A DNA stretch of 59,054 nucleotides from Archaeoglobus sp. (GTDB lineage: Archaea; Halobacteriota; Archaeoglobi; Archaeoglobales; Archaeoglobaceae): NCBI RefSeq assembly GCF_017656475.1, contig NZ_JACDNT010000011.1:1-59054 (forward strand), in the 5' to 3' direction. This document shows positions 25,408-35,305 of the stretch, in pieces. The position numbers were made by a program, and so were the translations under genes. Numbering within the stretch: position 1 is the stretch's first letter; every line of letters starts with the position of its first letter. A model generated the notes under the pieces. That model was not told the DNA's origin and did not search any database. It worked only from the letters and a program-made list of their open reading frames with translations.

Positions 25408-25863
25408 TTATTTTAAAGGCTCAAAGTAAAGAATGTCAGTAATCTTCCCCTCTCTTTCCTCCTTCCACACCGCTTTAACTCTCGTTCCCGGCTTAAAGGT
25501 TTCGTGGACTTTCCGCCATTCTGAAAGGTCTACCCCTCCGAGGAAGCAGAGCATTCCTGTATCAGCCCCATCCAGCTTCACAACTCCGATAGCGTAGGGA
25601 GGGTCAGGAAGGCCGGTAAACTTCATGTAGGTCACTGTTAAGGTTTCAACCACTCCCTCATCACTCACCTCAACCCAGTCGTTAGTTTCAACATGGCATC
25701 TCTCGCAGAAAGCTCTTGGAGGGACGAGGACTCTTCCGCACCTCTCACATCTCACCCCAAGAATCTTTCCATCCTTCAACCCCTCAAAGAACTTCGTTGC
25801 ATGCAAACCAGCGGAATGTTTGAAGGGAATTTTCCACCAAATCTCAAACTCCTTAACTTCCAT
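25408..25863 (-). CDS. DUF35 (zinc ribbon plus OB-fold) acyl-CoA-associated protein
   Basis: The start is the ATG at 25863, following GGTGAT by 4 bases; the open frame to 25932 runs into the upstream gene. It has 151 residues. A rubredoxin-like zinc ribbon has C39, C42, C53 and C56, followed by an OB-fold (GVVETLTVTYMKF..PPYAIGVVKLDG, MLCFLGGVD). This is the DUF35 family. Such proteins scaffold thiolase and HMG-CoA synthase complexes in archaea, or act as ChsH2-type partners of retro-aldolases in bacteria. It is the last gene of the seven-gene operon, directly after two thiolase-like genes, so a complex with them is very likely. Confidence 0.85.
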   Translation of the reverse strand: MEVKEFEIWWKIPFKHSAGLHATKFFEGLKDGKILGVRCERCGRVLVPPRAFCERCHVETNDWVEVSDEGVVETLTVTYMKFTGLPDPPYAIGVVKLDGADTGMLCFLGGVDLSEWRKVHETFKPGTRVKAVWKEEREGKITDILYFEPLK

Positions 25864-25868
25864 TAACA

Positions 25869-27026
25869 TCACCCCAGCTTTTTCTTCGATGATAGCACAG
25901 CGAGGGTATGGAACTGTAGCGTCCCACCCCATGCATGGGCTAAAGCAACTTCAGCACCATCAACCTGATTCACAGCCTCACCCATCACCTGAAGAGCTGC
26001 TTCTCCAAACCTCACCAATCCTGTAGCCCCAATCGGATTTGTGCACAGCACTCCCCCTGAGGGGTTGGTTGGCATATCCCCATCGATAAAAGTTACACCC
26101 TCTCTTGCGAGCTCCTTTCCTCTGCCTTTCTCCGCAAATCCAAGCGCTTCAAGCTCCAAAATCTCCTGAATTGTGAAGGGAGAGTAAAGCTCTGCTACGT
26201 CAATGTCCTTAACAGGATTCTCTATACCTGCATCCCTGAAAAGTCTCCTTCCGGCAATAGCAAGAGAATCCCACTCCGCAAAGCTCAGTCTGTCCCCGAG
26301 GTAGTAGCTGTCACTGATTGTGGTTTCTGCAACAATCCATGCCGGGTTATCTCTTATCTTCTTTGCCAAATCCTCGGAGGCAAAAATCACAGCAGCGGCC
26401 CCATCACTCCTCGGACAGCACTCCAGAAGCTTCAGCGGAGAGCAGACAACCCTGCTTTTGAGAACATCATCAACACCCAAATCCATTTTGATGTGCGCAT
26501 AAGGGTTTTTCAGTGCATTTTTGTGATCCTTAACACTCACCCACGCCAGATCCTCCTCAGTTGCCCCATACTTTTCCATGTAGGCTGTTGCCTGGAAAGA
26601 AGCAATGTGAATGGCCCCTAATCCTGAATGCCTTTCGTAGATGGGATCAACAGCCGTATTTAGCACTGGCTGCGCATCAACGCACTCACCAACCCTTTGA
26701 ACGCACACTGCCATGACCAGATCGAACAGCCCACTGGCCACATGCTCGTAGGCTGCCAAGGCAGTGGTCATCCCTGTCGTTCCACCCGTGGAGATTTTCA
26801 TCATCGGCTTTTCAAGACTGCATGCAGTAGCATCCCATCTTTCAGGGCAGTAGATACCATCAAAGGGGTCCATAGACCCATAAGCTACAGCCTCTATATC
26901 CTTCAACTCCAATCCAGCATGCTCCAGTGCAGCATTAACAGCCTCAAAGGCGATTTCCGGGTGGGTTTTATCCTTCCTCTTCGTTCTGAAATGTGTCTGA
27001 CCGAAACCGACAACTGCAACACTCAT
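25869..27026 (-). CDS. thiolase-superfamily protein lacking catalytic Cys/His (SCPx/Ltp2-like)
   Basis: The start is the ATG at 27026, preceded by GGAGGGG. It has 385 residues of thiolase fold. Where thiolases have the nucleophile (usually ACASG) this reads STGGTTGMTTALAAYEHVASG (79-99) with no Cys. Where thiolases have GGxxxxGHPxGATG, the sequence is SGGVLCTNPIGATG, with the His-Pro changed to Asn-Pro. Canonical thiolysis is therefore unlikely. Thiolase-like aldolases (Ltp2) that cleave beta-hydroxyacyl-CoA side chains share loss of the Cys and a DUF35 partner, which is the next gene here. Alternatively it is a non-catalytic subunit. The family call is firm; the reaction is inference. Confidence 0.75.
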   Translation of the reverse strand: MSVAVVGFGQTHFRTKRKDKTHPEIAFEAVNAALEHAGLELKDIEAVAYGSMDPFDGIYCPERWDATACSLEKPMMKISTGGTTGMTTALAAYEHVASGLFDLVMAVCVQRVGECVDAQPVLNTAVDPIYERHSGLGAIHIASFQATAYMEKYGATEEDLAWVSVKDHKNALKNPYAHIKMDLGVDDVLKSRVVCSPLKLLECCPRSDGAAAVIFASEDLAKKIRDNPAWIVAETTISDSYYLGDRLSFAEWDSLAIAGRRLFRDAGIENPVKDIDVAELYSPFTIQEILELEALGFAEKGRGKELAREGVTFIDGDMPTNPSGGVLCTNPIGATGLVRFGEAALQVMGEAVNQVDGAEVALAHAWGGTLQFHTLAVLSSKKKLG

Positions 27027-27027
27027 A

Positions 27028-28095
27028 CTACCCCTCCAGAATTGCAACGCATGACCTCTGAGCGTAGCCGCTCATTGACTGAACAAGGCCGCAGTCTATC
27101 TCACCCTTCCTGATCCTTTCCACGATGCTGGCGAGCAGAAAGGCTCCCGTGGAGCCGTAGGCGTTAGTGCAGAGGGCACCCCCAGAATGGTTCACGTCTC
27201 CATTGTAGTCCCACCCCCTTCCCTCTTCCGCAAATCCAAGAGCCTCCAGAATCATGCAGTGGTAATCGGCAGTAAGATCGCAAATTTCAAGAGCTTCCAC
27301 ATCTCCCCTATCCTTTCCTGCCATTTTGAATGCCATCTCGGCACTTTTGGCTACAAAAGGAAGTTTCTGAAATTCTCTGTCGAAGTAGTAGTTTTCCAAA
27401 CTCCAACCTAACCCGCTAACCCATACAGGGCTGTCGGTAAGCCTTCTTGCAACAGTTTCCTCAGCGAGAATAAAGGCAACGCATCCATCACACCACTCTG
27501 CAATCTCAAGCCGTCTTAGTGGTGAGGAAACGATTTCAGAGCTTAAAACGTCCTCTACTCTTACCTTATCCCTTACAAAGGCTCTGGGATTCTCTGACCC
27601 ATTTTCCCTCTCCTTCACCACCACCTCAGCTATCTTTTCCTCATCAACACCATACCTCCTCCTGTAAGCGTAACTCTGCATGGCGAAAAATGCTGGAAGA
27701 GATAGGTTGAGGGGGCGGTGGAAGAAGGGGTCGAGGCTCTGCAGCTCAACAAGCTCAATCGGTGTTTCAGAACTGTGACCGAAAGCGAGGAGCATCGTTA
27801 CATCCGACCTGTGCCTCAGCCTCATGCAGGCTAAAGGCAGGGCAAACAGGGCATCATCGCTCACCCTGATTTCGTGCCTCAGATACGCCCCTGCCGCTGG
27901 AGCGGTGTACATGTTTGAGATCGTTCTCCCCACTCCAAGATTGTCGTAACCGCCAAGGATGAAGCTGTCCACCTCCCCTCTTTCAATTCCCGCATCCTCC
28001 AGAGCCCTTTTCGCCGCTGTGAATGCAATATTGTAAAAGGGCTCCTTATGGATGCCAAACTCCGTAAAACCTACACCAACAATACCGATTCTCAA
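27028..28095 (-). CDS. second thiolase-like protein, degenerate active site
   Basis: The start is a TTG at 28095, chosen because a perfect GGAGGTGATT ribosome-binding site lies just before it and it removes an overlap with the upstream gene. It has about 355 residues. The N-terminus RIGIVGVGFTEFG and the C-terminal SGGALCTNAYGSTGAFLLASIVER show a thiolase fold. The nucleophile region reads IRVSDDALFALPLACMRL, with the Cys out of register, and the GHP histidine is replaced by TNA. It is paralogous to the next gene, and the spacing of 1 base between them suggests they form a heteromer with the DUF35 protein. Confidence 0.72.
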   Translation of the reverse strand: MRIGIVGVGFTEFGIHKEPFYNIAFTAAKRALEDAGIERGEVDSFILGGYDNLGVGRTISNMYTAPAAGAYLRHEIRVSDDALFALPLACMRLRHRSDVTMLLAFGHSSETPIELVELQSLDPFFHRPLNLSLPAFFAMQSYAYRRRYGVDEEKIAEVVVKERENGSENPRAFVRDKVRVEDVLSSEIVSSPLRRLEIAEWCDGCVAFILAEETVARRLTDSPVWVSGLGWSLENYYFDREFQKLPFVAKSAEMAFKMAGKDRGDVEALEICDLTADYHCMILEALGFAEEGRGWDYNGDVNHSGGALCTNAYGSTGAFLLASIVERIRKGEIDCGLVQSMSGYAQRSCVAILEG

Positions 28096-28099
28096 AAAA

Positions 28100-29920
28100 T
28101 CACCTCCTGTACATCTCCTCAATAAATTTCTCGTACCGCTTCAAAATCACGTGTCTTCGCTTTTTCATCGTTGGAGTGACCTCTCCTTTCTCTATTGTGA
28201 AAGCCTCAGGCAACAGTTTAAACTTCTTAATCCTCTCATGAGCTGCGAATTTGCTGTTAACTTCTTCAACAATTCTACCGTAAATCTTCAAAATCTCTGG
28301 GTTCTCCACAAGCTTCTCGTCAACTGCAACAACTTCTTCTTCCCCGGAAATACCCCTCACAGTGCTCGTCTTGGTTCTGTCGTAGTCTATCTTACCTTCC
28401 TCGGCAATATTAATAAGCATTTCAAAGTTCGGAACTATTAAAGCAGTAATGTATGGCTTCCTGTCTCCAATAATGACGGCATCTGAGATGAGCGGATTTT
28501 TGAGCAGCTCCTCCTCTATGGGAATTGGGGAAACGTTTTTTCCTGTGTCAAGCACTATTATGTGCTTCTTCCTTCCGAGAAAAATGAGATAACCATCTTC
28601 ATCAAACTCACCCAAATCACCAGTCTTCAACCACCCATCGGGAGTGAAAGCTTTTTTTGTTTCATCATCTTTCTTCCAGTAACCTTTCATCACGTTTTCT
28701 CCCTTAACGAGAATTTCTCCATCCTCCGCAATCGCCTCCTCCACACCTGGAATCGGGGGCCCTACTGTTCCGGGTTTGAACCTGCCCACCGGGTTGAGAT
28801 TGGATGGCGCAGCGGTTTCTGTCATACCGTAACCCTCTATGACGGGGATACCCATTCCGTTGAACATGTAAGCCAGTTCCTTCTGGAGCTCTGCCGCAGA
28901 GGAACAGATGAACCTGACTCTCTGGAATCCCAGATTTTCTCTTATCTTGCTGTAGACGAGCTTGTCAGCCAAAAAACTCTTTAAGCTGAGCCATAATCCA
29001 TATCCTTCTCCCCTGCTCATCATCCTCCCGTACTCTATCGCAACGTTTCTCGACCAGTAGAACAGTTTTTTAGCAAGCTTGGATGACTTCTCAACCCTTT
29101 CAATTATGCCCGCGTTAACCCTCTCAAGTATCCTCGGCACAACCACTAAGCCGACTGGTTTTACAGCCCTTGAGGTTTCAAGAAACTGCTGAGGAGTGCA
29201 GAAAACTGCTGTTGCAGCTCTTGAAATGCCCGCAAAGAAGACGAGCCGCTGGTAAACATGGCTGAGGGGGAGATAGCAGATGTGCGGTTCGCCGGGATAA
29301 AAAGGAGTGATGGACATCACGGATAAGGCATTAAATCTCCAGTTCCAGTGTGTGAGCATCGCACCTTTCGGCTCTCCGGTTGTTCCCGAAGTGTAAACTA
29401 TGCTCGCCACGTCATCCGGCTTTATACTCCTCCACCTTTCCTCGTATTCCTCATCCGCTGCCTCTTCTCTGCTCAACTTGCTGATTTCATCAAGAAAAAA
29501 CACCTCAACATCCTCTGGAAGGTTGTCAGCATACTTTTTCTCTGTGAAAACCAATTTGCTCTCTGAGTCTCTCAAAATATATTCAACCTGCTGTCGGTTA
29601 AGCACGCTGTGGACTGTTACGACAATCCCACCGGCAGTCAGAATTGCGAGGTCTGCTATCTCCCACTCGTATCTTGTGTCAGCGTAAATAGCCACTCTGT
29701 CTCCCTTTCTAAGCCCGTAGGAAATCAGAAACTTCGCCAGCTTTCCGACTCTACCACCGAACTCCCTGTAGCTGATGTACTTCAACTCTCCGTCACTCCA
29801 GTATCCAATTGCTGGCACATCTGAGTGGTCAGCAATTACGCTCCAGAACATCTTATTGAGTGTCTCCTTTCGCTCTACTTTGAGTTCCTCGCCTTTAGCT
29901 GTCTTTCTAACTCTTGTCAT
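28100..29920 (-). CDS. fadD: long-chain acyl-CoA synthetase (AMP-forming)
   Basis: This activates a carboxylic acid with ATP and CoA. Its 606 residues carry the AMP-binding signature YTSGTTGEPKG (176-186), GYGMTETAAPSNLNP, GWLKTGDLGEFDEDGYL and a C-terminal lysine region KGEVTPTMKKRRHVI. The arrangement resembles FACL/AMP-dependent synthetases for long-chain or bulky acids. Substrate cannot be read from sequence. It sits in the operon between the acyl-CoA dehydrogenase (4-base gap) and the thiolase-like genes (4-base gap). The cluster holds two further acyl-CoA synthetases of different subfamilies. Confidence 0.85.
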   Translation of the reverse strand: MTRVRKTAKGEELKVERKETLNKMFWSVIADHSDVPAIGYWSDGELKYISYREFGGRVGKLAKFLISYGLRKGDRVAIYADTRYEWEIADLAILTAGGIVVTVHSVLNRQQVEYILRDSESKLVFTEKKYADNLPEDVEVFFLDEISKLSREEAADEEYEERWRSIKPDDVASIVYTSGTTGEPKGAMLTHWNWRFNALSVMSITPFYPGEPHICYLPLSHVYQRLVFFAGISRAATAVFCTPQQFLETSRAVKPVGLVVVPRILERVNAGIIERVEKSSKLAKKLFYWSRNVAIEYGRMMSRGEGYGLWLSLKSFLADKLVYSKIRENLGFQRVRFICSSAAELQKELAYMFNGMGIPVIEGYGMTETAAPSNLNPVGRFKPGTVGPPIPGVEEAIAEDGEILVKGENVMKGYWKKDDETKKAFTPDGWLKTGDLGEFDEDGYLIFLGRKKHIIVLDTGKNVSPIPIEEELLKNPLISDAVIIGDRKPYITALIVPNFEMLINIAEEGKIDYDRTKTSTVRGISGEEEVVAVDEKLVENPEILKIYGRIVEEVNSKFAAHERIKKFKLLPEAFTIEKGEVTPTMKKRRHVILKRYEKFIEEMYRR

Positions 29921-29924
29921 ATCT

Positions 29925-31157
29925 CTAAATTCTGTAACTCCTCGGCATTCCGAGTATGTGCTCTGCTATGTAATTAAGAGCCATCTGCTGTGTTATTGGA
30001 GCCAATCGGAGCAGATTAACCTCTCTCCACCACCTCTCAACATCATACTCCTTGGCATATCCGTATCCACCGAAGGTCTGCATCGCCCAGTAAACTGCCT
30101 TGAGAGAATTCTCAACCGCCACAGCTTTAGCCATGTTTGCGGCATCCCCTATTTCTCTGAAAACTTCAGCCATCTCCACCCTTTTCTTCGGATCCTTCAC
30201 ATCCTCGCTCTTAAACTTTGTATCGTACAACCAAGCAGCCTTGTACATCATAAGCCGAGCGCACTCCAATGCTGCGTAAGCTTCAGCCAATGGAAACTGC
30301 AAGCCCTGATAGCTCCCAATTGGATCGGCAAAAACTTTCCTCTGCTTTGAATACTCAACCGCCTTGTTTATCGCCAGCTTTGCCCCGCCAACCGCACCTG
30401 CAGAAGCACTCATCCTCTCCGGATTCAGAACATCAAGCAGGAGATACCATCCCAAGTCCTTCTCGCCGAGAATGGCATCCTCCCCAACTCTCAGATTGTT
30501 TATGCTCACCTCACAGGTTTTTGAGAAGTTTATGGCGTGTTTTGGAATTGGGTTCCATTTAACCGCATCGTTTGGCAAATCTACCAGAAACAGTGTTATG
30601 CCGAGAGTTCTACGCGGAGCTTTTTCTGGAGGAGTTGTTCTCGCAACAAGAAGCATTCCCTTCGCCCTGTCAACTCCGCTGATGAAAATCTTGTTCCCGT
30701 TGATGATATACTCTTCTCCATCCTTTTCGGCAAAGGTCTTTATCCTGAGCGTGTTTGTCCCTGCATCAGGCTCAGTTAAGGCCATGCAGAACTCCATCTC
30801 ACCTTTTGCAATTTTCGGCAAATACTTCTCCTTCTGCTCCTCCGTTCCGTATCTCACTATGGGCAATGCTCCGAAAACTTCAGTCAAAACGAAGTACCAC
30901 ACCCCACCAGCTCCACAGCCATTCGCTGCAAGCTCCTCCATCGCTATCAGCAGCTCGGTTATTCCGTAGCCTCCACCACCGTACTCCTCCGGAATCACTA
31001 TGCCCATGAAGCCCGCATCGCTTATTGCCTTGAAGAACTCCTCAGCAAACTCCCCATTCTCCTCCTTCTCCCTCCAGTACTCAGGCGGGAAGTCCTTGGC
31101 TATGTCCCTTGCAGCGTTGGCAATCATCCTCTGCTCTTCGTTAAATTCAAAGTTCAT
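29925..31157 (-). CDS. acd: acyl-CoA dehydrogenase with IVD/LCAD-type catalytic base
   Basis: This FAD enzyme oxidises acyl-CoA to enoyl-CoA. It has 410 residues with MALTEPDAGTNT (125-136), NGNKIFISG, and the C-terminal FGGYGYAKEYDVERWWRE. The position that holds the catalytic Glu in medium-chain enzymes (in RIYEGT) reads RLAPIT here, with Pro at 387, so that base is absent. A Glu is found instead at 247 in NPERMSASAGAVGG, the place used by isovaleryl-CoA and long-chain acyl-CoA dehydrogenases. This supports an active enzyme that tolerates branched or bulky chains. The alignment is by eye. It lies 11 bases after the MaoC gene in the operon. Confidence 0.87.
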   Translation of the reverse strand: MNFEFNEEQRMIANAARDIAKDFPPEYWREKEENGEFAEEFFKAISDAGFMGIVIPEEYGGGGYGITELLIAMEELAANGCGAGGVWYFVLTEVFGALPIVRYGTEEQKEKYLPKIAKGEMEFCMALTEPDAGTNTLRIKTFAEKDGEEYIINGNKIFISGVDRAKGMLLVARTTPPEKAPRRTLGITLFLVDLPNDAVKWNPIPKHAINFSKTCEVSINNLRVGEDAILGEKDLGWYLLLDVLNPERMSASAGAVGGAKLAINKAVEYSKQRKVFADPIGSYQGLQFPLAEAYAALECARLMMYKAAWLYDTKFKSEDVKDPKKRVEMAEVFREIGDAANMAKAVAVENSLKAVYWAMQTFGGYGYAKEYDVERWWREVNLLRLAPITQQMALNYIAEHILGMPRSYRI

Positions 31158-31168
31158 GCTATCACCTT

Positions 31169-31609
31169 CTACTCCTTTTTCTTCACAGCCACCCTCAGAA
31201 TGCAGTTCAGAACCACGTCTCCGGTCTGCTTAGCCAAGTTTGTCTCAATCTTCACGACTCCAAACTGCCCTCTGTCCTGTTTCTCCACAACCTTTACCCT
31301 CGCCTTTATCGTATCTCCAATAAAAACAGGATTGGTGAAGCGAAGTCTGTCAATGCCGTAAAAAGCAACCACAGTCTCCTCTAAAAAGCCGAGCCTCATC
31401 AGTAATCCGCTCATAATGGAGAGAGTCAGCAGTCCGTGGGCAATTCTCTGCCCGAAGATCGTGTTTTTTGCATACTCGGCATCAACATGTATGGGATTCC
31501 AGTCTCCAGTTAAGGCAGCGAACATCACAATATCAGCTTCTGTTACAGTTCTGCCGGCAGTCTCAAGCTCCATTCCCTCCTGAAAATCTTCAAAATACAG
31601 ACTCTGCAT
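31169..31609 (-). CDS. MaoC-like (R)-specific enoyl-CoA hydratase
   Basis: This is a hot-dog fold hydratase that adds water to trans-2-enoyl-CoA. It has 146 residues: LYFEDFQEGMELETAGRTVTEAD at the N-terminus and the hydratase motif GDWNPIHVDAEYA with catalytic D36 and H41, then IAHGLLTLSIMSGLL. A single-domain MaoC of this length acts as a dimer. Its ATG directly abuts the stop codon of the preceding acetoacetyl-CoA-synthetase-type gene. With the dehydrogenase next to it, it supplies the hydration step. No 3-hydroxyacyl-CoA dehydrogenase accompanies it. Confidence 0.87.
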   Translation of the reverse strand: MQSLYFEDFQEGMELETAGRTVTEADIVMFAALTGDWNPIHVDAEYAKNTIFGQRIAHGLLTLSIMSGLLMRLGFLEETVVAFYGIDRLRFTNPVFIGDTIKARVKVVEKQDRGQFGVVKIETNLAKQTGDVVLNCILRVAVKKKE

Positions 31610-33598
31610 TTAACTCTCCTCCAGCTGCTCCACGTAGGGCTTTGCAGCTTCAACAACCTTGAAAACGGCATCAGGATTCATGATGCTGTCCAGATTGACC
31701 GCCTTATCCACCTCCCATCCAAGGAGAATCTTTTTGGTCGGCACCTCCAGCTTCTTGTAGTTGAGTGTCATCGGAATGTCAGGAACCTGAATTATGTAGT
31801 CGGCAACAAAGTACGCTCCCAGGTTCTCCCTCAAAGCCTTGTTGATTTTTTCCTTAAGCTCCTCAGTAAGCTCCAATCCGTGTGCTAGGACTACGAACAG
31901 GAATATCTTGCCTTTCACCTCAACCACAAGGCTGTTTATCACTTCATCAAGCCCCTCGACAACCTTGTAGAAGTCGAGAGTGCCCATTCTGACTCCCTTT
32001 CTCTTAATCGTTGAGTCTGAGCGACCGAAGATTATTGCTGTCCCTCTGTCCGTGATCATCAGCCAGTCTCCATGCCACCAAACGCCTGGAAACATGCTGA
32101 AGTAGCTTTCTTTATACCAGCTGTAGCCCTCATCATTCCAGAAGTAGAGAGGCATTGACGGCATTGGCAGCTCTACAACAAGCTCCCCCACCTCGTTTAT
32201 TACCGGCTTACCTTCGATGTTGTAGGCCTCAACTTTCGTTCCGAGCCACCTGCACTGCAGTTCTCCACTCCAGACTGGAAGAATTGGGCAGCCTCCAACA
32301 AAGCCCGTCATCACATCCGTTCCTCCACTTGAAGAACTCAGCCAGACGTCCTCTTTGACCTTCTTATAGACCCATTCAAATCCTTCAGGCGAGAGTGGGG
32401 CTGCAGTTGAGCCGATCATTTTAACACTGCTCAAATCGTATTGTGAGCTAGGCTGAAGTCCAAATTTCATGCATCCATGCAAGAAAGGAGCACTCGTTCC
32501 GAAGATGTTCAGTTTCTCCTTCTCACAGAGTTGCCACAATGGCTGAAGGAAGTTGTAAAGTGGACTTCCGTCGTAGAATACAATTGTAGCCCCAGCTAAC
32601 AGACCACTCACAACGGTGTTCCACATCATCCAGGATGGTGGAGAGTACCAGAGGAACCTGTCTCCCTCCTTGAAGTCCATGTGGAAGGAACCCTTGAAGA
32701 TCTCAACTGTAATCCCTCCATGCCCGTGCACAATTGACTTTGGAATTCCCGTAGTTCCTGAAGTGTAGAGAACCCAAAGCGGATGGTCAAAAGGCAAAGG
32801 CTCAAACGTCAGTTTCTCTTTTCTATCAACTGTCTCCTGCCAGTAGTGGACGGGAATGTTCAGCTTCAAATCGTGGGATTCATAGAGGTTAGGGACTAAA
32901 ACAACCCTTTCAAGGCTCGGAATACCATTGGCAACCGTCTCTATGTCCTCAAGCTTGTTGAATTCCTTTCCGTTGTAAAAGTGTCCGTCAGATGCGATAA
33001 GAACCTTTGGATCAAGCTGCTTGAACCTGTCAATGACTGCTCTTGGCGCAACTTCACCACCAACAGCTGCCCATATTGCACCGATGCTTGCGGTTGCCAG
33101 CAATGCAACTACTGCTTCTGGCACCTGACTGCAGTAAGCAACAACTCTATCTCCCTTCTTAACTCCCATCTCCTTCAGCCAGGCTGCAAAGGCTGCAGTC
33201 TGCTTCTCCAGCTCACTCCAGCTAAAAGCCCTTCTCAACCCATCCTCCCTGACATATACAACCGCTTCACCCTCTCCAGCTTTTAAAAATGCGTGTTCAG
33301 CGTAGTTCAGCGTCGCTCCCTCAAACCACTTCGCTCCCGGCATCTTCCGCTCATCCAGCACAGTCTTGTAGTCGCTGTAACTCTTGACCTCAAAGAACTC
33401 CCAGATGCCCTCCCAGAAGTCTTCAAGCTTCTCCACCGACCAGTTCCAGAGATTCTTGTAGTTCTCAACATTCTCCCTCGCATTTTCCGAAACTACAAGG
33501 TCCAGTCCCTTGTTTGCGGAAAGCCATTCAGCGAACTCAGCCAGATTCGAGTTCTTTATGAAATCTGAATCTGGCTCCCACAAAATTTTCGGTTCCAT
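31610..33598 (-). CDS. acetoacetyl-CoA synthetase-type AMP-forming ligase
   Basis: This has 662 residues. Features typical of acetoacetyl-CoA synthetase include the N-terminal block with WFEGATLNYAEH (91-102), the AMP-binding motif LYTSGTTGIPKSIVHGHGG (277-295), SSSSGGTDVMTGFVGG, and the C-terminal NYKKLEVPTKKIL lysine segment. It activates a short 3-oxo or related acid; the family is clearer than the substrate. It is the first gene of the seven-gene operon. The ATG is preceded by GGTGAG, and the promoter (TATA at 33631-33638) is embedded in the shared 59-bp element. Confidence 0.85.
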   Translation of the reverse strand: MEPKILWEPDSDFIKNSNLAEFAEWLSANKGLDLVVSENARENVENYKNLWNWSVEKLEDFWEGIWEFFEVKSYSDYKTVLDERKMPGAKWFEGATLNYAEHAFLKAGEGEAVVYVREDGLRRAFSWSELEKQTAAFAAWLKEMGVKKGDRVVAYCSQVPEAVVALLATASIGAIWAAVGGEVAPRAVIDRFKQLDPKVLIASDGHFYNGKEFNKLEDIETVANGIPSLERVVLVPNLYESHDLKLNIPVHYWQETVDRKEKLTFEPLPFDHPLWVLYTSGTTGIPKSIVHGHGGITVEIFKGSFHMDFKEGDRFLWYSPPSWMMWNTVVSGLLAGATIVFYDGSPLYNFLQPLWQLCEKEKLNIFGTSAPFLHGCMKFGLQPSSQYDLSSVKMIGSTAAPLSPEGFEWVYKKVKEDVWLSSSSGGTDVMTGFVGGCPILPVWSGELQCRWLGTKVEAYNIEGKPVINEVGELVVELPMPSMPLYFWNDEGYSWYKESYFSMFPGVWWHGDWLMITDRGTAIIFGRSDSTIKRKGVRMGTLDFYKVVEGLDEVINSLVVEVKGKIFLFVVLAHGLELTEELKEKINKALRENLGAYFVADYIIQVPDIPMTLNYKKLEVPTKKILLGWEVDKAVNLDSIMNPDAVFKVVEAAKPYVEQLEES

Positions 33599-33682: not shown

Positions 33683-35305
33683 TTATGGAAGCACTAAATC
33701 CTTGTACTTCTCCCTTATCGCTTTCTTGTTTATCTTGCCAACAGTTGTTCTTGGCATCTCCTCAACAACAAAAACCCTGTCGGGAAGCCACCACTTTGGA
33801 ATCTTTCCCGTCTCAACGTAGTTCTGCGTCAGGAAGTCAATTATCTCCTTCTCGGTCACGTTCATTCCCGGTTTGGGAACAACCACTGCAATTGGCCTCT
33901 CACTCCACTTCTCACTCCTCGCAGCAACCACAGCAGCCTCTCCAACAGCAGGATGCTCCATAATCAGACCTTCAAGCCTAACCGAGCTTATCCACTCGCC
34001 ACCGCTCTTTATCACATCCTTTGCCCTGTCAAGAATTAGAATGTAACCTTCTTCATCCCACACTCCCAGATCTCCTGTGTGGAACCAACCCTCACTGTCC
34101 CAGGATTCAGCGGTTTTCTCAGGATTCTTCCAGTAGCCCTCTGTTAAGCCCGGGCTGCGGATGAGAATCTCACCCATCGTTTTGAAGTCCCTCGGCACCT
34201 CCTTGCCCTCATCGTCAACGATTCTGACTTCAACAAAGGGGGCAGGCAGTCCAGCCTTGTTTAAGTACTCCACCTGCTTATCCCAGTCCCAGTCGAGCAT
34301 GTGGTCCTTAAGCACCGCAAATGTGAAGCCCACCCCCTCAGACATCCCGAACGCCTCGATCATCTTGATTCCAAGCTGCCTCGCCCTCTCAAACAGTACT
34401 CTCTGCGGATGCTCACCATCACACACATACTTGAACTTTGACAGCGCATCCTTGTAGTTCTCCACCTCAGGATAGTCGAGGAGCATTTTCAGAAATACAG
34501 GAACTCCACCTGCATAAGTGACACCTTCGTTCTTAATGAGGTCGAGCATAACCTTCGGTTCGTATCTTCCTGGCAGAACTTGCTTCATTCCTAGCATTGT
34601 CGCCAGATACGGAAATGTCCAGCCCATTCCGTGGAAGAATGGAGGAATGTGCATGATCACATCTGTAGAACTCATTTTCGCTGGAGACTCGTTTACAGAA
34701 AGAGGAAGGCCGTTGATTATGCACTGCATTACAATCTGCCTGTGAGAGAAATATACAGCCTTGGGCAAGCCTGTTGTGCCTGAAGTAAAGTAGACGATTG
34801 CCGTCTCATTCTCATCAAGCTCTGGGAAGTCATAATCGGAGCCTTCTTTAATCAGATCTTCCCATATGTAAACTGGTTTCAAGCTGGTGTCAACCTTGTC
34901 CACATCGTCTCCTGTCACAATCCATCCTTTAACTGATGGGATGTGGGGTGCGAGTTTCTCTGCCAGCGGGAGAAATTCATCCCTTATCACAACAAAATCG
35001 TCTTCTACGTATCGCATTGTGTAAACTATTTCCTCTGGAGCCAGTCTCAAATTGATGCAGTGCAGAATGGAGCCCATCATAGGAATGGCGAACATCCCTT
35101 CCAGATACTGGTGGGTGTTCCAGTCAATGAAGGCAACCTTTGCTCCCTTAGCCCCTATGTTTTCGAGAGAGTTGGCTATTCTCTGCAATCTCTCATAAAA
35201 TCTTTTGTAGGTGTACCTGTACACGTCTCTGTAGACTATCTCCTTGTTCGGATATGCATGCAGGGGGAAAAAGAGGGTTTTCTTAATTGAGAGGTTGTAC
35301 CTCAT
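33683..35305 (-). CDS. medium-chain (AlkK-type) acyl-CoA synthetase
   Basis: This has 540 residues with AMP-binding motif YFTSGTTGLPKAV (172-184), AFGMSEGVGFTF, GWFHTGDLGVWDEEGYILILDRAKDVIKSGGEWIS and the C-terminal PRTTVGKINKKAIRE with its catalytic Lys. The domain set and the phrase DWNTHQYLE..AIPMMGSILHCINLRL are characteristic of the AlkK group of fatty-acid-CoA ligases. It has its own promoter: a ribosome-binding site GAGGTGGT, and a TATA box at about 35350-35357 within the second copy of the shared operator. It is thus a separate transcription unit likely under the same regulator as the downstream seven-gene operon. Confidence 0.87.
   Translation of the reverse strand: MRYNLSIKKTLFFPLHAYPNKEIVYRDVYRYTYKRFYERLQRIANSLENIGAKGAKVAFIDWNTHQYLEGMFAIPMMGSILHCINLRLAPEEIVYTMRYVEDDFVVIRDEFLPLAEKLAPHIPSVKGWIVTGDDVDKVDTSLKPVYIWEDLIKEGSDYDFPELDENETAIVYFTSGTTGLPKAVYFSHRQIVMQCIINGLPLSVNESPAKMSSTDVIMHIPPFFHGMGWTFPYLATMLGMKQVLPGRYEPKVMLDLIKNEGVTYAGGVPVFLKMLLDYPEVENYKDALSKFKYVCDGEHPQRVLFERARQLGIKMIEAFGMSEGVGFTFAVLKDHMLDWDWDKQVEYLNKAGLPAPFVEVRIVDDEGKEVPRDFKTMGEILIRSPGLTEGYWKNPEKTAESWDSEGWFHTGDLGVWDEEGYILILDRAKDVIKSGGEWISSVRLEGLIMEHPAVGEAAVVAARSEKWSERPIAVVVPKPGMNVTEKEIIDFLTQNYVETGKIPKWWLPDRVFVVEEMPRTTVGKINKKAIREKYKDLVLP

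Follow-up and report, generated by a model that had tools for sequence, protein, structure and literature searches.

How is an acyl-CoA shortened by an operon that encodes CoA ligases, an acyl-CoA dehydrogenase (ACAD), and an enoyl-CoA hydratase, when no 3-hydroxyacyl-CoA dehydrogenase (HCDH) accompanies them and the two thiolase-like proteins encoded beside them have lost the thiolase nucleophile? The question is raised by a locus of Archaeoglobus sp. (family Archaeoglobaceae; assembly GCF_017656475.1, contig NZ_JACDNT010000011.1), for which a stretch of 59,054 nucleotides, hereafter the window, was analyzed; its contig is C11 of a 2.04 Mb genome that is 96.5% complete. Seven near-abutting open reading frames, all on the minus strand (33598-25408), encode an acetoacetate-CoA ligase family enzyme (AACS type), a MaoC-type hydratase, an ACAD, a FadD-type ligase, two thiolase-like proteins (THL1 and THL2), and a DUF35 protein, and the Pfam and NCBIfam results agree with the families and the position given in an earlier, sequence-only reading of the window. 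We consider it probable, at roughly 0.6, that THL1, THL2, and the DUF35 protein form a heteromeric retro-aldolase that would cut β-hydroxyacyl-CoAs and end a catabolic chain-shortening module.

Active sites and kinship of the thiolase-like pair

THL1, THL2, and their orthologs and paralogs were aligned with the zebrafish SCP2-thiolase (6hsj) and with the part of TcLtp2 (6ok1) present in the PDB alignments. In register with the SCP2-thiolase motifs NNNC, ELHDCF, and KGHPLG, THL2 reads STGG, ELYSPF, and CTNPIG, and THL1 reads SDD followed by four gap positions, EICDLT, and CTNAYG, so that neither protein presents the combination that defines canonical and SCP2 thiolases (nucleophile Cys, HDCF or CxG, and the GHP His in register). 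The sequence-only reading had noted the missing Cys and the change of GHP to TNP or TNA, and the alignment bears it out, with Gly or a gap at the nucleophile position and Asn in the place of the His in both proteins. Both residues are missing in 9/9 orthologs of THL1 and in 9/9 orthologs of THL2, which rules out a sequencing accident.

What THL2 has kept is a Tyr. The catalytic base of the characterized aldolases TcLtp2 and CtSal is the first Tyr of the YDHF/YDCY motif, as established by mutagenesis (PMC12329534). This residue is retained in 9/9 THL2 orthologs and in all 33 of the Archaeoglobaceae B-type proteins examined, and is absent from THL1; THL2 is also strongly conserved across genera (74-94%), motifs included. 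Judged by these residues, THL2 would hold half of the known aldolase machinery, and of the two proteins only THL2 looks catalytic, THL1 resembling a partner subunit. On this point the sequence-only reading is corrected.

The pair was placed in a 50-row tree for which support was also computed with the motif columns removed. THL2 fell into a B-subunit clade with Ltp3 of Nocardia, with homologs from Streptomyces and Nonomuraea, and with a Rhodococcus plasmid protein (support 99/94; 93/91 without motif columns), and THL1 joined Ltp4 and further A subunits with weaker support (88/91, falling to 71/86 once the motif columns were removed). Ltp2 was placed apart, among the Cys-containing thiolases, and was rejected as the nearest relative, both by the tree and by the approximately unbiased (AU) test of a clade of THL2 with Ltp2 (p 0.012); the same test did not reject a common origin for Ltp2 and all B proteins (p 0.17). 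The pair from the Nocardia locus passes the profiles PRK07937 and PRK08313 and has a steroid 3-ketoacyl-CoA thiolase nearby; partly from this context, we take PRK07937 to be Ltp4 and PRK08313 to be Ltp3. As in the wider Ltp3/Ltp4-type group, the A and B genes lie side by side and are accompanied by a DUF35 gene, and we would class the system as a paired Ltp3/Ltp4 variant. The sequence-only reading had invoked an Ltp2-type system; its retro-aldol chemistry is favored by several inferences, but its choice of relative gives way to paired Ltp3/Ltp4. A literature search by A. fulgidus gene number returned nothing on the operon, and no description of archaeal Ltp-type aldolases was found in the literature searched.

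Dehydrogenase neighborhoods and the conserved module

Genome-wide, 11 matches to PF00725 were found and none lies on the window's contig, in agreement with the earlier statement that the operon is without an HCDH. Ordinary β-oxidation is therefore available to the organism from HCDH genes elsewhere in the genome, which also holds three canonical Cys-His thiolases of the same type (own34, own35, and own36). Approximately 100 thiolase-type loci, almost all of them from Archaeoglobaceae, were sorted by nucleophile residue. Among Cys-containing thiolase genes, 26/40 have an HCDH gene at a distance of 5 kb or less, versus 1/33 among Cys-less THL2-type genes (Fisher p 1.6e-8), a contrast whose force is reduced by the relatedness, and hence non-independence, of the loci and by the shortness of some contigs; counted per orthologous group, an HCDH gene was nearby in 4/5 Cys-containing versus 1/4 Cys-less groups. 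The operon follows the logic of the igr type, in which an ACAD, a hydratase, a Cys-less aldolase, and a DUF35 protein are combined with no HCDH. Other thiolase-like paralogs are more numerous in genomes that bear the module (Mann-Whitney p 1e-4), which fits catabolism.

The genome also encodes a second Cys-less pair, in a module (L032:353-9674) with two DUF35 genes, an ACAD, and a crotonase in place of MaoC, again without an HCDH, that continues into a branched-chain-amino-acid-type ABC transporter. The logic is unchanged although the two hydratases are not homologous, an argument that these modules exist to hydrate and then cleave. The ACADs of the two loci are 78% identical overall and identical over their first 70 residues, which suggests recent duplication or gene conversion. 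A third Cys-less pair lies between two DUF35 genes (L033:698-4068), and its B subunit (own33_B) passes PRK08313 with 562 bits (cut-off 514); by this score the genome of the window also carries a closer relative of Ltp3.

Within the genus, the gene order is LIG2-AACS-MaoC-ACAD-FadD-THL1-THL2-DUF35, where LIG2 is a ligase gene that lies upstream of the AACS-type gene at a distance of 84 bp and that the sequence-only reading missed (Table 1). The spacing, the shared strand, and the same position of LIG2 in three congeners (L037, L039, and L068) indicate that the operon probably comprises eight genes. In other genera of the family, THL1-THL2-DUF35-MaoC-ACAD is contiguous and adjoined by a different ligase, and the AACS-type gene was seen only within the genus. 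THL1, THL2, DUF35, MaoC, and ACAD thus make up the core of the module, to which AACS does not belong. THL1 orthologs at 55% identity or above turned up in this family alone, the named relatives being Archaeoglobus and Geoglobus. When THL2 was run against 393 genomes of the phylum, 13 family members were returned at 74% or above, plus two distant genomes in which identity drops to about 46%. On plasmid pLP1 of Rhodococcus qingshengii (L069:4685-10685), the order ACAD-ACAD-MaoC-MaoC-A-B-DUF35 is found, with a B subunit 48% identical to THL2; the A subunit of this same module in an actinobacterium carries the annotation "hypothetical".

Further genes accompany the module in relatives. In other genera, the module is preceded upstream by a gene for a conserved protein of 185-200 amino acids (MPKRRLQTTLSDEAFKI...) with no Pfam match, which in the window's own genome precedes the Ltp3/Ltp4-like pair of L033 (L042:6580-7143, L043:10820-11377, L044:9003-9605, L209-L211, and L033:93-659); this protein is a possible shared regulator. 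In two distant archaeal genomes (L207:2966-9421 and L208:2141-9510), A-B-DUF35 lies beside β-keto-acid cleavage enzymes, CoA-transferases, and an acyl-CoA dehydrogenase, and the L208 set additionally includes MaoC and HCDH. A Geoglobus-type genome has two adjoining class III CoA-transferases, recalling BbsE/BbsF pairs, close to its copy of the module (L211:1158-3802).

Table 1. Genes and active-site features of the operon, with positions in the window
Feature	Position	Strand	Basis
LIG2, acyl-CoA ligase, probable first operon gene	33683..35305	(-)	PF00501; PRK06187 535 bits vs cut-off 476
Acetoacetate-CoA ligase family enzyme (AACS type)	31610..33598	(-)	PRK03584 874 bits (cut-off 639); TIGR01217 721 bits (cut-off 521)
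MaoC-type enoyl-CoA hydratase	31169..31609	(-)	PF01575 3e-39; catalytic D..H motif GDWNPIH intact
MaoC Asp36/His41 (DWNPIH), presumed catalytic as in R-specific hydratases	31487..31504	(-)	position from sequence
ACAD	29925..31157	(-)	PF02771/02770/00441
FadD-type acyl-CoA ligase	28100..29920	(-)	PF00501 3.9e-70
THL1, degenerate thiolase-like partner (A subunit, Ltp4-like)	27028..28098	(-)	PF22691; start codon unsettled (28095-28122)
THL1 nucleophile loop, SDD then 4-residue deletion	27853..27861	(-)	deletion common to Ltp4 and other A subunits
THL1 CDLT (HDCF in SCP2-thiolases, YDHF in Ltp2)	27271..27282	(-)	alignment
THL1 CTN, Asn at GHP-His position	27163..27171	(-)	alignment
THL2, Cys-less thiolase-like, probable catalytic aldolase subunit (B subunit, Ltp3-like)	25869..27026	(-)	PF22691 3.3e-35
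THL2 STGGTTG (79-85), Gly at nucleophile position	26772..26792	(-)	alignment
THL2 Y281-SPF, Tyr aligned with Y294 of TcLtp2 and Y302 of CtSal	26175..26186	(-)	alignment
THL2 C328-T-N330, Asn at GHP-His / Ltp2 Tyr344 position	26037..26045	(-)	alignment
DUF35 protein (zinc ribbon + OB fold)	25408..25869	(-)	PF12172 1e-11; PF01796 1.4e-14
DUF35 zinc ligands C-x2-C-x10-C-x2-C (C41, C44, C55, C58)	25696..25749	(-)	read from sequence

Proposed mechanism and its alternatives

In the mechanism that we favor, a carboxylic acid would be activated by one of the CoA ligases, the ACAD would form the enoyl-CoA, and MaoC would hydrate it to the β-hydroxyacyl-CoA, steps that are suggested by the families of these enzymes and their intact catalytic motifs. 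In the ACAD, Glu (E370, AKEYDVER) occupies the C-terminal catalytic-base position of the medium-chain acyl-CoA dehydrogenase, and we presume that it acts as the base. The THL1-THL2-DUF35 heteromer would then cleave the Cα-Cβ bond, with Tyr281 of THL2 deprotonating the β-hydroxyl, the bond breaking, and a ketone or aldehyde being released along with a short acyl-CoA, and neither an HCDH nor thiolysis would be required. THL1 would serve as a degenerate partner, and the DUF35 protein, which is DUF35/ChsH2-like (nearest PDB entry 3irb, next Shy-DUF35 9myr_B and 6esq_E), would dock the aldolase and shape the pocket, as in Ltp2-ChsH2 and Sal-Shy. We infer the complex, its chemistry, its direction, and its substrate; the retro-aldol reading draws on the retained Tyr, the absence of a nucleophile, the dehydrogenase contrast, the L032 module, and the clade of THL2 with Ltp3.

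Several observations weigh against retro-aldol cleavage. Since HCDH genes exist elsewhere in the genome, their absence from the operon is not proof of absence from the pathway; 1/17 L032-type loci (L094) does have an HCDH within 5 kb, and an HCDH, together with a β-keto-acid cleavage enzyme, stands beside the A-B-DUF35 set of a distant archaeal cluster (L208 of genome G172). The best NCBIfam match of THL2, PRK08313, scores 342 bits, below the cut-off of 514, and THL1 scores 176 bits with PRK06066 and 123 bits with PRK07937 (cut-off 419), both below cut-off, so that by this test the proteins are not members of the PRK08313 and PRK07937 families. The Tyr itself is replaced by Phe in two B-clade relatives (Htur_B and Rrho_B), and THL2 has Pro for the His/Cys of YDHF/YDCY and Asn330 at the position of Ltp2 Tyr344, an equivalence set by eye on the following Gly, with the register taken from the published numbering because the 6ok1 fragment stops just short (PMC12329534). 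The AlphaFold (AF2) models of THL2 (predicted local distance difference test, pLDDT, 71.5; predicted template modeling score, pTM, 0.79) and THL1 (76.9 and 0.83) show the thiolase fold. Fold was discarded as a means of telling aldolase from thiolase, because superfamily entries (Ltp2, Sal, BbsB, and thiolases) all matched alike, at TM 0.74-0.87, the THL2 model reaching 0.76 against Ltp2 6ok1.

We give an outside chance to the alternative that THL1-THL2-DUF35 carries out an aldol- or Claisen-type condensation, or a hydrolytic retro-Claisen cut of a β-ketoacyl-CoA produced by dehydrogenases encoded elsewhere. The HCDH-type genes elsewhere in the genome and the distant cluster just described would suit it, the AACS-type ligase suggests the handling of β-keto acids, and the thiolase-fold relatives PhlABC and HMG-CoA synthase form bonds. 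Yet an operon of ligases, dehydrogenase, and hydratase resembles catabolic clusters, there is no acyl-transfer nucleophile while the Tyr base is kept, THL2 shares a clade with the catabolic Ltp3, and 32/33 Cys-less loci are without a nearby HCDH.

That the two proteins are catalytically inert and serve the dehydrogenase and hydratase as scaffolds or as CoA-binding chaperones seems improbable, even though THL1 is stripped of all known catalytic residues and the term molecular staple has been applied to DUF35 (PMC10398937): the active-site Tyr is present in all THL2 orthologs, conservation across genera extends to the motifs, and a hydrated product would have no exit. Still harder to credit is a divergent thiolase of ordinary β-oxidation with another nucleophile, for instance Cys328 of THL2, which precedes the lost His position by two residues. 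This Cys is invariant in the aligned orthologs of both THL1 and THL2, which have the thiolase fold, but its position holds Ser or Thr in other B proteins, Ltp3 included; the nucleophile-loop Cys, the GHP His, and the HDCF residues have all been replaced, and the genome already has its three canonical Cys-His thiolases. Under retro-aldol cleavage, Cys328 is, speculatively, a candidate for the catalytic acid.

For a retro-aldolase, β-branched acyl-CoAs would by analogy be the most economical substrate class, since a tertiary alcohol cannot be oxidized to a ketone; in the parallel case of Ltp2, a tertiary hydroxyl is stated to preclude keto oxidation and thiolysis (PMC8399759). This falls short of proof because Sal cuts a secondary alcohol. 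There is a rather slim chance that Archaeoglobaceae degrade β-branched, isoprenoid-type chains anaerobically and at high temperature via a ketone-releasing THL1-THL2-DUF35, with a β-keto acid derived from the ketone being re-activated by the AACS-type ligase of the operon; branched chains would then have a non-thiolytic route as an alternative to β-oxidation. No hydantoinase-B-type ketone carboxylase that could feed this ligase was found in the 96.5% complete assembly, and the genome's only carboxyltransferase is encoded on another contig; a carboxylase-dependent (HMG-CoA-lyase-like) leucine route is a possibility only.

Significance and comparison with known systems

Retro-aldol cleavage of acyl-CoAs by Cys-less relatives of thiolases is already known from steroid-degrading bacteria. 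If our reading is true, a paired version with its own dehydrogenase and hydratase operates in hyperthermophilic archaea and the chemistry is wider than steroid catabolism, which would explain how the β-branched carbons that block β-oxidation are passed. The system would also be a source of CoA-dependent aldolases that withstand heat, and would allow the mechanism of Ltp3/Ltp4, including its catalytic subunit and acid, to be tested on a model. For annotation, a correction is due, as the genes bear thiolase names despite the loss of the thiolase residues.

The archaeal acetoacetyl-CoA thiolase of the mevalonate pathway resembles the system in its fold and in combining an archaeal thiolase-like protein with DUF35, and was rejected as an identity here (NF053570, 235 vs cut-off 600 bits); HMG-CoA synthase adjoins a different paralog. 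No Cys-His pair is present in THL1 or THL2 and the mevalonate-linked thiolase lies elsewhere, which leaves the sequence-level objections that the sequence-only reading had raised against itself without a footing here. That mevalonate-operon thiolase (L031:7000-8154, or G000:C15:29008-30147; TIGR00748 548 bits vs 353 in the window's own genome) and its orthologs among L104-L150 show the order HMGCS-ACAT-DUF35. Throughout the Archaeoglobaceae loci examined (34/34), the thiolase encoded next to HMG-CoA synthase has exchanged its nucleophile Cys for Asp (EAAD), HDCF for HDSF (the second Cys becoming Ser, once Val), and GHP for GHA; the nucleophile Cys is retained in 11 HMG-CoA-synthase-linked proteins (11 genomes) outside the family.

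Benzoylsuccinyl-CoA thiolase BbsAB (7pxp) likewise joins a thiolase-like subunit to a separate DUF35 protein and is encoded in an anaerobic catabolic operon. Unlike THL2, which has no Cys and scores 152 bits against a cut-off of 750, BbsAB is a true thiolase that acts downstream of a dehydrogenase. The bile-acid aldolase Sal-Shy (9myr), whose reaction releases acetyl-CoA, is matched by the Cys-less THL2 with its Tyr base and its DUF35 partner; the essential Cys304 of its YDCY is Pro in THL2 (YSPF), and its DUF35 zinc site is Cys3His versus Cys4 in the window.

Closer in operon content is Ltp2-ChsH2 with ChsE1/ChsE2 and ChsH1 of the igr operon, which shares the ACAD, the MaoC hydratase, the Cys-less aldolase, the DUF35 domain, the lack of an HCDH, and the Tyr at the YDHF position (Y281 in THL2). 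The canonical C4 finger of TcChsH2-DUF35 has a spacing identical to that of the window's DUF35 protein (PMC12329534). It differs from the window in its single aldolase gene and in the fusion of DUF35 to a hydratase, and THL2 differs from Ltp2 in Asn for Tyr344 and Pro for the His of YDHF.

Later accounts (PMC6273163 and PMC6593523, citing Wilbrink 2012) describe Ltp3 and Ltp4 as aldol lyases that are indispensable when a sterol side chain is branched at C24 but not when it is straight. The window shares with them an adjacent Cys-less pair with a DUF35 gene, with Ltp3 the Y-x-P-F and S/T-N-P motifs of THL2 and a supported common clade, and with Ltp4 the four-residue deletion in the nucleophile loop of THL1. 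It departs from them in the A-type motif (CDLT in THL1 versus HAPF), in uniting an ACAD and a MaoC hydratase with the pair in one operon, and in belonging to an archaeal, hyperthermophilic lineage.

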